DNA of 8,002 nucleotides from Tannerellaceae bacterium (lineage in GTDB: Bacteria; Bacteroidota; Bacteroidia; Bacteroidales; Tannerellaceae), in contig JAISCM010000061.1 in NCBI GenBank assembly GCA_031265595.1, positions 1 through 8,002 on the forward strand, in the 5' to 3' direction. The notes under the pieces are model-generated. The model worked only from the letters and a program-made list of their open reading frames with translations. It did no database searches and was not told where the DNA came from. The position numbers and the translations under genes were made by a program. This document shows positions 1 through 5,761 of this stretch, piece after piece; within the stretch, counting starts at the first letter, position 1; each line of letters begins with the position of its first letter.

Positions 1-297
1 GCAATCAATCCCCTCCCGGCGCGCCAGGATGCAGAGGCTGTTCATCTCGCGCTGCCCCACTGCACGGAAGCGGCCCCCACTGCTGTTTTTCGGGCGAAAC
101 TCCGTAACTTCCGTCAGCAGATTGATGCGGAAATCAAAGCGCTCTTTCAGGAATTGCTCCGTTACACACGAAATATCCTCCCGTTTCACCACCTCCGGCC
201 GAATGGTTTCCTGCTTGTAAACAAGCTGTTGAGAGACGCAACTCTTTCTCCGGCTAAGGGAAAAAACTCTTTTGATAAATAAAACGATTCTCTTCAT
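1..297 (-). CDS. VapE (virulence-associated E)-like protein, N-terminal fragment
   Basis: An open frame of 99 codons runs without a stop from an ATG (295-297, complement) to the left edge, so the gene is cut by the window. The protein starts MKRIVLFIKRVFSLSRRK, a basic N-terminus. From about residue 46 it reads VTEQFLKERFDFRINLLTEV, then a segment with F-R-P-K, then VGQREMNSLCILARREGIDC. This resembles the region ahead of the ATPase domain in Bacteroidales VapE/DUF3874 proteins (pattern: F-L-x-x-R-Y/F-D-x-R-x-N, TEYR, V-x-x-R-x-x-N-S-L-C, A-R-x-E-G-I-D-C). Family members are large primase/helicase-like P-loop proteins often found on phage-derived or mobile islands. The catalytic part lies outside the window, so activity cannot be judged. 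The assignment rests on recalled family motifs. A weak promoter candidate lies at 324-355. Confidence 0.7.
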   Translation of the reverse strand, partial: MKRIVLFIKRVFSLSRRKSCVSQQLVYKQETIRPEVVKREDISCVTEQFLKERFDFRINLLTEVTEFRPKNSSGGRFRAVGQREMNSLCILARREGIDC

Positions 298-355: not shown

Positions 356-449
356 CTTTTCCAGAGACGAAAAGCAATTACTGCCCGCAATATGTAGATA
401 TATGGTTTTGTATACGCTAATTTCATATCGTTGCGCCGTCAATCTAAGT

Positions 450-555
450 GTTTCACCCTTGTGAAACAACTGTTTCACCCCCGTGAAACGATCGTTTCAC
501 CCGGGTGAAACGCGTGTTTCACGGAGGTGAAACGCTTGTTTCAAAAGGGTGAAAG
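450..555. repeat. Phased array of five 18-bp dyads, 22-bp period
   Basis: Five 18-bp units start at 450, 472, 494, 516 and 538. Each has the form GTTTCAC-N4-GTGAAAC and is separated from the next by exactly 4 bases (aact, gatc, gcgt, gctt). The unit centres are CCTT, CCCC, CCGG, GGAG and AAGG. The third unit, GTTTCACCCGGGTGAAAC, is a perfect palindrome. The last unit is degenerate in both arms (GTTTCAA, GTGAAAG). Seen another way, ten heptamers alternate in orientation every 11 bp, about one helical turn, so each can pair with either neighbour. The arms are conserved while the 4-base centres and spacers vary, which fits a repeated protein-binding site (operator or iteron array) or a run of hairpins in RNA. 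It lies 152 bases upstream of the VapE-like start and 255 upstream of the first lipoprotein gene. The function is not known to me. Confidence 0.9.
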
Positions 556-630
556 ATTCAATGTATCGTGAACAAAGTAATAAATCATTGTATATAAACA
601 GCTAAAGCTATGAATATACCTGAATAGAAG
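556..630. other. AT-rich non-coding stretch beside the dyad array
   Basis: This interval is rich in A and T (for example aacaaagtaataaatcattg, 579-598) and holds no credible gene. It contains only very short frames, such as a 14-codon one from 569. Its position next to a repeated dyad array would suit a DNA-unwinding element, but nothing in the sequence proves that. The stretch from 298 to 449 likewise holds no gene or clear structure apart from the promoter candidate at 324-355. Confidence 0.4.
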
Positions 631-810: not shown

Positions 811-2040
811 ATGAAAAAAGTAACTACCCTTTCCGTAATGATCCTGTTTGTGATGGCAGGATGTAATCGGTCTGCTACGCAAAGTGATGGCTTCATTACC
901 GTAGATGTGACCGCAAATTATCCTAAAAAGGAACTGATTCTTCAAGACTTTCTGGATGTGGAATACATTCCGTTGGAAACAAATGACGAATTTCTAACTT
1001 CGGCAAGGATACAAGCCATTGGCAAGGATATTATGATCTTTAGAAATATAAGAAGAGATGGCGATATATTTATCTTTGACAGAAATGGGAAAGGCCTGAG
1101 AAAGATCAATCATTACGGACAGGGCGTCGGAGAATATACAAATATGCAGGATATTGTTCCCGACGAAGAGAATGACGAAATGTATGTCAACAATACTTTT
1201 TCAACAATCCTGTTAGTGTACGACCTGCTTGGGAATTTTAAACGGAGCTTCCGTCAGAAGGACGACCTTTTACTAAATCAAATGGCTGATTTCGATCGGG
1301 ATAATTTAATTTGTCACGATAATTATTTTCACTTTGATCATGAAACGCTAATAGATAAGAAGAGAAACTGCTTTTTGATTGTATCCAAACAGGATGGTTG
1401 CATCAAAGAAATACCTATTCCTTACGACGAAGAAAAGAAATCGACAATGCTATTAGGAAGGGATGCTAATGGCAAGATAATTGACAGGAGCATTCGTAAC
1501 AGGAAACTCATTCCTTACCAGGGCAGTTGGATACTTACAGAGATATCCGCCGATACAATCTATCGTTATTCGCCCGATCATACCATGACGCCTTTTATTG
1601 TAAGGACTCCGTCCATCCAATCCATGAATCCGGAAGTATTTCTTTTTACAGGCGTTTTTACAGACCGTTATTACTTTATGCAAACCGTAAAGAAAGTGTA
1701 TAACTATGTAACGAATACAGGATTTCCAAGTATTGATTTACTCTATGACAGACAAGAGAATGCCATCTTTGAATGTGCCGTATATAATGATGACTATACA
1801 AATAAAAAGCCGGTGAATCTGGTTTACGAAACATCCGTCACGCTGATAAACAACCATGAAATAGCCTTTGCGGAAAGACTGGAAGCTTTTGAACTTGTTG
1901 AAGCTTACGAGAAAGGACAGTTGAAAGGCAAATTGAAAGAAATTGCGGCTGAATTGGACGAAGAATCCAATGCGGTGATTATGCTGGCTAAGCATAAGGC
2001 AACACCGGCTACCACAACTTCCCCCTCTACAAGCCGGTGA
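811..2040 (+). CDS. 6-bladed beta-propeller lipoprotein (paralog 1)
   Basis: The protein is 409 aa with a lipoprotein signal peptide: MKK, a hydrophobic core, then lipobox MAGC with Cys18 as the likely lipidated residue, so it should be envelope-anchored. The mature part has the sequence style of the Bacteroidales 6-bladed beta-propeller family (DUF5128-like). It opens with LQDFLDVEYIPLET at about residues 44-57. Strand-like blade units follow, such as DIFIFDRNGKGLRKI and LVYDLLGNFKRSF, and then PFIVRTPSI and the ending KGKLKEIAAELDEESN. The family is common beside outer membrane proteins but its ligand is generally unknown. It is about 2% longer than, and clearly paralogous to, the next gene; signal peptide, propeller start and C-terminus are near identical. 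The last 14 residues, KATPATTTSPSTSR, are low-complexity and coincide with the intergenic repeat. The start is fixed by the signal peptide. Confidence 0.88.
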   Translation: MKKVTTLSVMILFVMAGCNRSATQSDGFITVDVTANYPKKELILQDFLDVEYIPLETNDEFLTSARIQAIGKDIMIFRNIRRDGDIFIFDRNGKGLRKINHYGQGVGEYTNMQDIVPDEENDEMYVNNTFSTILLVYDLLGNFKRSFRQKDDLLLNQMADFDRDNLICHDNYFHFDHETLIDKKRNCFLIVSKQDGCIKEIPIPYDEEKKSTMLLGRDANGKIIDRSIRNRKLIPYQGSWILTEISADTIYRYSPDHTMTPFIVRTPSIQSMNPEVFLFTGVFTDRYYFMQTVKKVYNYVTNTGFPSIDLLYDRQENAIFECAVYNDDYTNKKPVNLVYETSVTLINNHEIAFAERLEAFELVEAYEKGQLKGKLKEIAAELDEESNAVIMLAKHKATPATTTSPSTSR

Positions 2041-3429: not shown

Positions 3430-3792
3430 ATGAAAAAGCTATTTTATATATCCCTTGTGCTGCTTTCTTCGATTGTATGTTCTGCGTATGCGCAAAGTCC
3501 GGTATCGGCTTGTGTGCAGGGGGTGGAGGGAAGCGTGTTGCCGTATGCAAACGTATTGTTTTTTCAGCATGATTCGCTGGCGGGAGGCGTTTATACCGAC
3601 GATAAGGGTTGCTTTACGATCCGTATGGATACGGGGGCGTATGTGATGACTGTTTCTTACGTAGGCTATAAAGATCATACAGAGGACATACAATTGACGG
3701 CTGAGGGATTGCACGTACCCCCTCCTCGTTATGCAGATAAGCGAGGTGGAATTAAGCGAAGTCACCGTACTGGGAAAGCAGCAAACCGCTAA
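3430..3792 (+). CDS. N-terminal part of the outer membrane protein: signal peptide plus CarboxypepD_reg-like domain
   Basis: This frame is 120 codons. Residues 1-22 are a Sec signal peptide (MKKLFYISLVLLSSIVCSAYAQ, cut probably after AYA). Residues about 24-95 form a carboxypeptidase-regulatory-like beta-sandwich: VQGVEGSVLPYANVLFF, then TDDKGCFTIRMDTGAYVMTV and SYVGYKD. This domain commonly precedes TonB-dependent receptor plugs in Bacteroidetes. After the C-tract the frame continues as PPPRYADKRGGIKRSHRTGK, which looks like out-of-frame translation, and stops at 3790-3792. As it stands it would yield a short periplasmic domain with no barrel. Confidence 0.65.
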   Translation: MKKLFYISLVLLSSIVCSAYAQSPVSACVQGVEGSVLPYANVLFFQHDSLAGGVYTDDKGCFTIRMDTGAYVMTVSYVGYKDHTEDIQLTAEGLHVPPPRYADKRGGIKRSHRTGKAANR

Positions 3793-5761
3793 ATTAAACA
3801 GAGATATTTACCGTATTTCTCCGGAGATAAAAAGGTCTTCGCCCGATGTGTTTTTGGCGCTAAGCAGTTTGCCTGTGCTGGCGGTAGACGATTTTAATAA
3901 AACGGTAAGCCTGAGAGGGGCAAGCAACAGCGTGGTATTGGTGAATAACATTCGCCGGACAAAGGAATATGTACAGTTGATACGGCCGGAAAATATCGAA
4001 AGAATCGAAGTGAGCCATTCGCCCGGAGCAAGATATACGGTGAATGGCGTGGATGGGATCATAAACATCATTACCAAATACCCGACGACCGGCTACAATG
4101 GGTTTACCAATGATGAGATAAGTACTTCGTCCCTGTATACCAGAGTAGAGGGAGGCTTCAACTATGTTACCGAAAACATGGTTACGTCTCTCGTTGGCAG
4201 CGAATCTTTGTATCACGACAAACGCCGCGACATATCATTGCTGCGCGATGCAAACGGCGTTCATACCGATAAAAGAAACAACGGGCGATACGACGCCACC
4301 TATCATATACCCAAATTGAATGTCAACTGGGATTATACCCTGTCGCCCGAAACATTTATCAGCCTCAATGCCAACTATTCCGATTTCCCGAAGAAAACGG
4401 AAACACCTTATGATATATCACGCACTTCGTCTGATGGACAAGGAATCAATCTGTTTGACGCCCTGGAAAAAGAAGATGAGACGAACGCAAGATACAATAC
4501 AAGCCTTTATTTCCAGACAGCGTTTACCCCTCAAAAGACGCTGAATGTAGATATGGATTACTCCACCTCAAAAGGTAGAACCAGGTATGATTATCATGAA
4601 TACAATAGAGCAACAGGCGATGTATCCGGCATACATCAGGTGAGACGGAATAAGGAGCAATCCGCCAATATGCAAGTAAACTTCCGGCAGGAGTTTGCTA
4701 AAATCGAATGGGAAGAGGGCGTCAGGTTTCAGTGGGAAGACTATCAATTCCACCATGAATCCCAAACTTCTACCACCGACAGGCAGCAGCGAACACGGGG
4801 GTATGCGTATCTGAATGCTACGGGAAGTATTGGCGAACGCTTTGTTTATCAATCGGAAAACATATTCGATATAGCGAACATGAAAGGCCAGGGCGAAACG
4901 TCGCATACGTATAAAGGTTTTACGCCCCAGATCATGCTTCGTTACTTTTTGGGAGACAATCAAAGCGTGATGTTCAATTACGGACTTAGCCATACGTATC
5001 CCGACTTTTCGCTCCTGAATCCTACGCCGGTGTATCTGGATTCTTCCCGGATCACGTCCGGGAATCCGAATCTGAAACCATTCTTCAGGCAGTCGTACCG
5101 TTTGACGTATCAACTGACAAGGCCCAACGTAAAAAACCTTTTCATTCGATTAGCCATTTTATACCAGCTAACAAACAACAATATTACACGAAAAGAGGAG
5201 GCAGACGCCGACGGGATCTATCATATCAGTTATTTGAATGCCGCCCGTCATTATAATCTGCAATTCCAGATCAATGCCGCCCTCAACGTCATCAATAATT
5301 GGTATCTGTATATGGAAGCCTGGGGGCGTCGCCTTACATTTAAAGATGACTATCAGTTGCAGTTCAATAAACAATATTGGGAATATTTCTTCTCTATGGG
5401 AAGCCAGTTCCGGTATAAGAATTTCATCTTTATGTATACCTACATCCCTACCTTCCGGACTCCTACGCTGACAGGCTTTGAGAAAACCGAAACGTATTCG
5501 GCCGTCTCAGCACGATACAGAATAAACCGCTCGTTGGACGTAGGCCTGTCTTTCCGTGATTTCGCAGCGCCAAAGACATACAAGCGCGAAGCCTATACAG
5601 ATACGTATAATGAAATCTATACCAACACGATGACCCAAAGGCGCAACGAGCTCTACATTACTATTAACTGGTACTTCCAGAAAGGAATACAAAAACAAAA
5701 AAAGCAAAAACAGACAAAAGAATACGAGAACAGTATCGGAATAGATACAAGAAACTATTAA
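3731..5761 (+). CDS. C-terminal part of the outer membrane protein: TonB plug plus beta-barrel
   Basis: This frame is 676 codons from the first ATG after the frame change. That ATG is probably internal to the original gene, since no signal peptide follows it. The plug domain spans roughly residues 8-115: SSPDVFLALSSLPVLAVDD, VSLRGASNSVVLVNN (LRG motif at 61-63), RPENIERIEVSHSPGARY and GVDGIINIITK. The rest is rich in alternating aromatic strands typical of a barrel (OMP_b-brl_3-like), including FNYGLSHTYPDFSLLNP and ITSGNPNLKPFFRQSYRLTY. The last predicted strand is ELYITINWYF, followed by a Lys/Gln-rich tail ending in a TAA. Without the upstream signal peptide the product would not be exported, so function depends on restoring the frame. 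Confidence 0.8.
   Translation: MQISEVELSEVTVLGKQQTAKLNRDIYRISPEIKRSSPDVFLALSSLPVLAVDDFNKTVSLRGASNSVVLVNNIRRTKEYVQLIRPENIERIEVSHSPGARYTVNGVDGIINIITKYPTTGYNGFTNDEISTSSLYTRVEGGFNYVTENMVTSLVGSESLYHDKRRDISLLRDANGVHTDKRNNGRYDATYHIPKLNVNWDYTLSPETFISLNANYSDFPKKTETPYDISRTSSDGQGINLFDALEKEDETNARYNTSLYFQTAFTPQKTLNVDMDYSTSKGRTRYDYHEYNRATGDVSGIHQVRRNKEQSANMQVNFRQEFAKIEWEEGVRFQWEDYQFHHESQTSTTDRQQRTRGYAYLNATGSIGERFVYQSENIFDIANMKGQGETSHTYKGFTPQIMLRYFLGDNQSVMFNYGLSHTYPDFSLLNPTPVYLDSSRITSGNPNLKPFFRQSYRLTYQLTRPNVKNLFIRLAILYQLTNNNITRKEEADADGIYHISYLNAARHYNLQFQINAALNVINNWYLYMEAWGRRLTFKDDYQLQFNKQYWEYFFSMGSQFRYKNFIFMYTYIPTFRTPTLTGFEKTETYSAVSARYRINRSLDVGLSFRDFAAPKTYKREAYTDTYNEIYTNTMTQRRNELYITINWYFQKGIQKQKKQKQTKEYENSIGIDTRNY

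Follow-up and report, generated by a model that had tools for sequence, protein, structure and literature searches.

The window, the whole 8,002-nucleotide stretch of Tannerellaceae DNA analysed here, carries at positions 450 to 555 (no strand assigned) an array of 10 alternating heptamer half-sites forming 5 dyads with a 22-bp period, and this array is one member of a dispersed element family in several Bacteroidales genera. Judging from sequence comparisons, we put at about one half the probability that the array is a dispersed element resembling BIMEs or Rickettsia palindromic elements (RPEs), whose half-sites putatively dock a cooperative dimeric protein. Such an element would consist of tandem dyads of the half-site GTTTC-A-Y, flipped every 11 bp, about one helical turn. 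A putative dimeric DNA-binding protein would dock on the half-sites and may assemble cooperatively on a single face of the helix. The copies would have spread as a BIME- or RPE-like repeat, with mirror symmetry suggesting birth by inverted copying, and nucleoid organisation or local expression would be candidate cellular roles of the complex. Docking is suggested by the strict phasing, the many copies in some genomes and the retention of the arms while the centres drift. Against docking, the elements come and go between species, as selfish DNA would; varying arm words would require the protein to co-evolve; the unit number is variable; and the tested neighbours share no function.

In the window, the heptamers start at 450, 461, 472, 483, 494, 505, 516, 527, 538, and 549. 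GTTTCAC and GTGAAAC occur by turns at a step of 11 bp, and every gap is 4 bases long. The strict ten-heptamer array with 4-base gaps described by the sequence-only reading was thus borne out, with 8 of 10 heptamers perfect and the other two being GTTTCAA (ninth) and GTGAAAG (tenth). The pattern GTTTCA-N5-GTGAAA matched 9 times (both strands, 5 dyads), versus 0 matches in 200 dinucleotide shuffles. The dyads, all without an assigned strand, are GTTTCAC-CCTT-GTGAAAC (450 to 467), GTTTCAC-CCCC-GTGAAAC (472 to 489), GTTTCAC-CCGG-GTGAAAC (494 to 511), GTTTCAC-GGAG-GTGAAAC (516 to 533), and GTTTCAA-AAGG-GTGAAAG (538 to 555), the last with one mismatch in each arm. The third is a perfect palindrome and forms the mirror centre of the array. 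The centres are mirrored across the whole array, a feature absent from the sequence-only reading: CCTT and AAGG match fully, CCCC and GGAG match at 3 of 4 letters, and the middle CCGG is self-complementary. Therefore, the 104 bp from 451 to 554 (no strand assigned) form one near-palindrome, with arms at 451 to 502 and 503 to 554 that are 87% complementary. The spacers are poorly mirrored (2/4 and 1/4).

The array sits between two diverging reading frames. On the left, a frame of 99 amino acids without a Pfam match (1 to 297, minus strand) runs off the window, and on the right lies a gene for a DUF5128 six-bladed beta-propeller protein (811 to 2040, plus strand); both point away from the array. 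The array's own site was not found in relatives among 123 family genomes, in which the best match to the outer-membrane protein of the window was 31% identical. Named proteins nearest to those of the window belong to Tannerellaceae and Parabacteroides. Elsewhere in the window, a reading frame with a CarboxypepD_reg start (3430 to 3792) overlaps, in a different frame, one encoding an outer-membrane barrel whose plug match is weak (3731 to 5761), as if one TonB-dependent receptor gene had been split near 3730 by a frameshift or a sequence error. By eye, the regions upstream of two DUF5128 genes (630 to 770 and 2016 to 2220) are alike and both seem to hold the tail end of a preceding copy; the DUF5128 genes look like a decaying tandem duplication.

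The distribution of the family was surveyed with two patterns. When one genome per GTDB species was searched, the exact three-heptamer pattern was found in 6 stretches, all from Bacteroidales: one each in a Bacteroides metagenome-assembled genome (MAG), a Porphyromonas MAG, and Porphyromonas uenonis, and three in Phocaeicola oris. The looser pattern TTTCA-N6-TGAAA-N6-TTTCA gave 55 (in the Bacteroides MAG), 10, 8, and 29 matches in these four genomes, versus 0 for the control, which was the same pattern reversed. Among 393 Bacteroidales genomes, 59 had the looser pattern and 16 had control matches, and most single matches look like chance. In the family of genome G293, taken to be Tannerellaceae, 29 of 123 genomes held 165 matches versus 15 control matches in 8 genomes; both totals are hand sums in which overlapping matches of one array count separately, and 49 of the 165 come from genome G461. 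Thus, the array family is real but patchy. The exact pattern had no match in viral contigs, and a blastn search of plasmids and phages with window positions 400 to 620 had none. In the open-access literature, judged by titles and the starts of abstracts and with subscription journals mostly outside its scope, no paper on the array family was found.

To describe the family, 120 loci selected from the places listed in 13 genomes were taken together with as much as 2 kb of DNA to either side. In these, 121 arrays were delimited, making 122 with that of the window, and as delimited they have 3 to 13 half-sites, a count that hangs on the stop rule of the script. The typical number is 6 in G435 (11 of 16 arrays) and G439 (7/8), 8 in G431 (4/4), G430 (4/6), and G001 (14/20), and 4 in G461 (18 of 21), while the number varies widely in G004 (4 to 13), G429 (7 to 12), G438 (3 to 10), and G440 (3 to 8). 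The spacing itself is specific. In 400 kb of G430 picked regardless of arrays, the alternating 11-bp spacing gave 3 arrays, one of them weak, and six other spacings, the direct orientation, and four control words gave 0 arrays in the same 400 kb. Centres, spacers, and arm words form genome-specific dialects. The commonest arm words in 398 seed-free half-sites were GTTTCAT (81), GTTTCAC (43), GTTTCTC (37), and TTTTCAC (20), and among arrays L136 to L148 of G430, G431, and G450 the spacer GATC is nearly fixed in the last two genomes and common in G430, with a varying spacer in other genomes. As a separate observation, G438 and G440 (L159, L164, L166, L168) appear to hold another kind of dispersed element; the flanks surrounding TGAAAATCGATTTTCAT are conserved in it, and it ends near GGGTAATATTTTTTAA.

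The mirror symmetry of the window array recurs in two other genomes. In the 18 three-unit arrays of G435 and G439, the outer centres mirrored each other at 44 of 72 letters versus 29.9 expected (0 of 4,000 shuffles), and the spacers of the same arrays avoided mutual mirroring (37/72 versus 46.1 expected). Over all 68 of the 122 arrays that could enter the test, namely those starting with TTTCA and having an even half-site number, the total was not significant (174/452 versus 164.6; 753 of 4,000 shuffles), and there were 11 full mirror matches versus 6.0 (72 of 4,000 shuffles). A hairpin of the whole element was rejected as a general trait, since among five sets of arrays the total mirror matches were significant only in G435 plus G439. 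By eye, the mirror was not maintained by compensation in four alignable ortholog pairs. The symmetry of the window and the two genomes would thus be a trace of birth by inverted copying rather than a maintained structure.

Most arrays lie between genes. With that of the window included, 111 of 122 have a called gene on both sides, 8 were initially placed inside a gene, and 3 lack one neighbour. The intergenic arrays are co-directional in 61 cases, divergent in 28, and convergent in 22, which fits the background (P = 0.24 to 0.62), with genes called by a simple script and the intergenic space of one genome, G430, as the background. A terminator or 3'-end role was rejected, as these 111 arrays have no orientation bias. 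The 30 genes flanking 15 arrays (10 of the 16 fetched for G435 and 5 of the 6 for G430) have no common function; they include those for CTP synthase, PhoU, MraW, a MutS-like protein, TatC, a lipoamide dehydrogenase-like protein, an HU-like protein, and others, and one of the 30 lacks a Pfam match. A regulon was rejected as well, because these 30 genes give no theme. The sequence-only reading had turned to relatives for recurrence of the array beside conserved neighbours; the recurrence was confirmed, with arrays in other family genomes and some at shared positions, and the common function of neighbours did not appear among those tested.

Several array positions are common to related genomes, and others differ between them. 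The L128 array is absent from G464 and G448. The L122 site has no array in G448, G438, and G440, and G439 has a different palindromic repeat there. Neither of these empty sites could be aligned to the base. The intergenic region between phoU and a porin gene holds two unrelated repeat types, namely a GTTTCA array in G435 and a TTTCCGA...TCGGAAA palindromic array in G439 (L320, about 1990 to 2320). At L128 (1950 to 2112), in both G435 and G439, the array has the end of a dihydrolipoamide dehydrogenase-like gene on one side and a terminator-like hairpin on the other.

A few arrays occupy coding sequence. Three of the 122 (L126/L152 and L141) lie within a frame that stays open over 150 amino acids or more, and the remaining five that were first classed as inside do not. 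L126/L152 are in frame in the gene for a heavy-metal P-type ATPase (G435 and G439), and L141 is in frame in prmC of G430. The prmC genes of G431 and G450, orthologs found by DNA similarity, also carry an array. Among 17 prmC loci read (18 genomes searched), 3 had an array, 2 (G429 and G293) had a shorter TTTCT-type stretch, and 12 had no insert. The long loop is present in 31 of 120 listed ATPase homologs and a loop 14 residues shorter in 10, and 79 stayed unclassed (24 read past the site by the pattern of the script and 55 unmatched by it). Sequence around the site agrees between the homologs P0142 and P0149, and the difference at the site itself is exactly 14 residues.

At orthologous sites, the arms are under constraint. 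Over 12 comparisons of orthologous arrays, differences were found at 27 of 445 arm positions (13/230 when seed-free), 90 of 308 centre positions, and 200 of 1,008 flank positions, where the poorly aligned L124 pair (60/84) is part of the flank total and three-way sites contribute repeatedly. When each site was reduced to one pair and the L124 pair left out, seed-free arms differed at 4/120, centres at 51/176, and flanks at 77/588 (arms versus centres, P = 2e-9; arms versus flanks, P = 0.001; centres versus flanks, P = 3e-6). The arrays and most of their orthologous partners were found by motif, a bias that the masking of seeds lessens and does not abolish. For prmC, where similarity rather than the motif led to two of the three orthologs, seed-free arms differed at 8/90 and centres at 33/84. 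Here, letters are retained at the DNA level within a coding gene. The centres change faster than the flanks, so that either the flanks are partly constrained or the centres are turning over actively, perhaps through copying from unit to unit; plain neutrality does not explain the faster centres unless the flanks are constrained.

The elements may instead be selfish palindromic repeats of the REP, MITE, or RPE kind, devoid of host function, with arms that serve as recognition sites for their own propagation machinery. We regard this explanation as somewhat unlikely. It accords with the dispersed copies, their presence or absence between species, the in-frame position within prmC and the P-type ATPase of which relatives lack the insert, and the lack of a shared function among tested neighbours. 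It also accords with the mirror symmetry of the outer units in the 18 arrays of G435 and G439, which the ortholog pairs, read by eye, do not maintain by compensation. However, the arms resist change at sites conserved in position, which a dead insertion would not do, and at the empty L128 and L122 sites neither terminal repeats nor target duplications could be delimited. In addition, the Y1/RAYT transposase (PF01797), matched in 44 of 123 family genomes, had no match in eight array-bearing genomes (G429, G430, G431, G438, G439, G450, G458, and G461) and was matched in five others (G109, G435, G440, G470, and G507). The GTAG and CGTC tags of REPs (PMC3733652, as far as the available text goes) were sought within 12 bp outside 244 array ends, where GTAG occurred 8 times and CGTC 5 times, compared with 4 times each 100 bp further out. 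A RAYT-dependent REP is therefore unlikely, as the transposase match is missing from those eight genomes (and present in five) and there is no end tag.

Among described repeats, BIMEs and Rickettsia palindromic elements come nearest. BIMEs are reported to contain binding sites for several proteins (PMC2817692, available part). Like BIMEs and REPs, the arrays are dispersed and mostly extragenic, with palindromic units alternating at a regular spacing. Unlike them, the arrays consist of 7-bp half-sites at 11 bp, whereas REPs measure 20 to 40 bp in the available part of PMC3733652; eight array carriers lack a Y1 transposase match; and the arrays do not avoid divergent regions and also occur inside genes. 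Rickettsia palindromic elements are described, in the accessible portion of PMC10969869, as inserted in frame in unrelated metabolic genes, and the arrays resemble them as palindromic repeats in frame in unrelated genes whose relatives have none. However, RPEs are about 150 bp long and, in the same portion, reported mainly inside genes, whereas the arrays are mostly intergenic and that of the window spans 106 bp. BrickBuilt, a MITE minisatellite of Porphyromonas gingivalis with the 23-nucleotide consensus AGAYCATARTATCCTCTCRTRTG (PMC4596501, available sections), is likewise repeated in tandem, with a similar period, in an intergenic element of Bacteroidales, but its consensus lacks the arm word and its termini are insertion sequence (IS)-like in those sections. 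Identity with BrickBuilt was ruled out by the different consensus, as given there. The RepRanger paper, in its available text, lists only other Bacteroidota genera.

A more specific version of docking, which we consider doubtful, is that these are Bacteroidales-specific docking arrays of half-parS-like heptamers, one per helical turn and in species dialects. A ParB-like protein, or another dimeric protein of the nucleoid, would be loaded on them as a filament at up to tens of chromosomal places in a genome, and the arrays would have spread by inverted copying into intergenic and even coding DNA.

It is quite improbable that the heptamers are half-parS sites proper, the array retaining ParB away from parS as in Pseudomonas aeruginosa. 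In the available part of PMC10419367, most ParB ChIP peaks of that species contain a half-parS heptamer, GTTCCAC or GTTTCAC, and GTTTCAC of the window is exactly one of these two; the variant GTTCCAC also occurs in the arrays. Among the matches listed, one canonical parS (GTTTCACGTGAAAC or GTTCCACGTGAAAC) was found in each of 14 of 23 genomes, and the fourth arm letter is only T or C (344 T and 54 C of 398), as in GTTYCAC. However, parS joins its halves with no gap, whereas the arrays have a gap of 4 bp. GTTYCAC is exact in 8 of 10 window heptamers, but in only 54 of 398 seed-free half-sites pooled over other genomes (GTTTCAC 43, GTTCCAC 11), and A, the sixth letter in parS, occupies that arm position in only 270/398. 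Array arms thus vary where parS is constant, and the available part of PMC10419367 describes scattered heptamers and no phased arrays. In the source text available, binding of half-sites by Bacillus subtilis ParB was not observed. Because the gap differs and only 54 of 398 arms are GTTYCAC, ParB stays a rival; from the identity of the heptamer with half-parS, it may serve as a testable candidate binder.

The sequence-only reading had offered two interpretations, cooperative binding of a dimeric protein and a chain of interchangeable RNA hairpins. The first is retained as a plausible interpretation, given the phasing at 11 bp only, the conserved arms, and the changing centres, and the second was not borne out by arm covariation or strand tests. 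Changes in the dyad arms were compensatory in 10 cases, paired but non-complementary in 3, and one-sided in 397, and on the transcribed strand G-U and A-C mismatches were equally common (86 versus 93). Array extension admitted only small arm changes, and the absolute covariation numbers are accordingly soft. Covariation is present in one spacer pair, the outermost letters (C..G or A..T), which were complementary in 269 of 339 dyads versus 250 expected (0 of 2,000 shuffles), this being one of eight pairs tested in that register. The innermost letters avoided self-complementarity (57/339 versus 138.7 expected), and the two registers of the test share half-sites, so that their counts are not independent. 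The outermost covariation suits a symmetric protein site and also a hairpin. As the arms are constrained and rarely compensated, with no excess of G-U, a constraint on duplex DNA is favoured over RNA hairpins.

Thus, RNA hairpins acting as transcript terminators, mRNA stabilisers, or a chain of stem-loops are highly improbable: each dyad could form a short stem capped by a tetraloop, the array of the window as a single strand folds into one long hairpin (-42.6 kcal/mol, z = -10.3, DNA parameters), two terminator-like matches overlap it versus 0.4 expected in the region, one array (L128/L150) is positioned between a gene end and a terminator-like hairpin, and both spacer trends fit, but the arm changes are uncompensated and without a G-U excess, divergent intergenic regions are not avoided, and no Rfam family matched the window.

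If the elements are selfish, they would be an unusual repeat, with arms fixed even where no RAYT transposase is found. If the docking of a cooperative dimeric protein is true, the family would be a dispersed, phased binding array whose protein has no description yet, and it would give access to nucleoid organisation in a phylum that has received little study. In addition, the joint evolution of a protein and its sites could be followed through the many species with different dialects, which would form a natural series.
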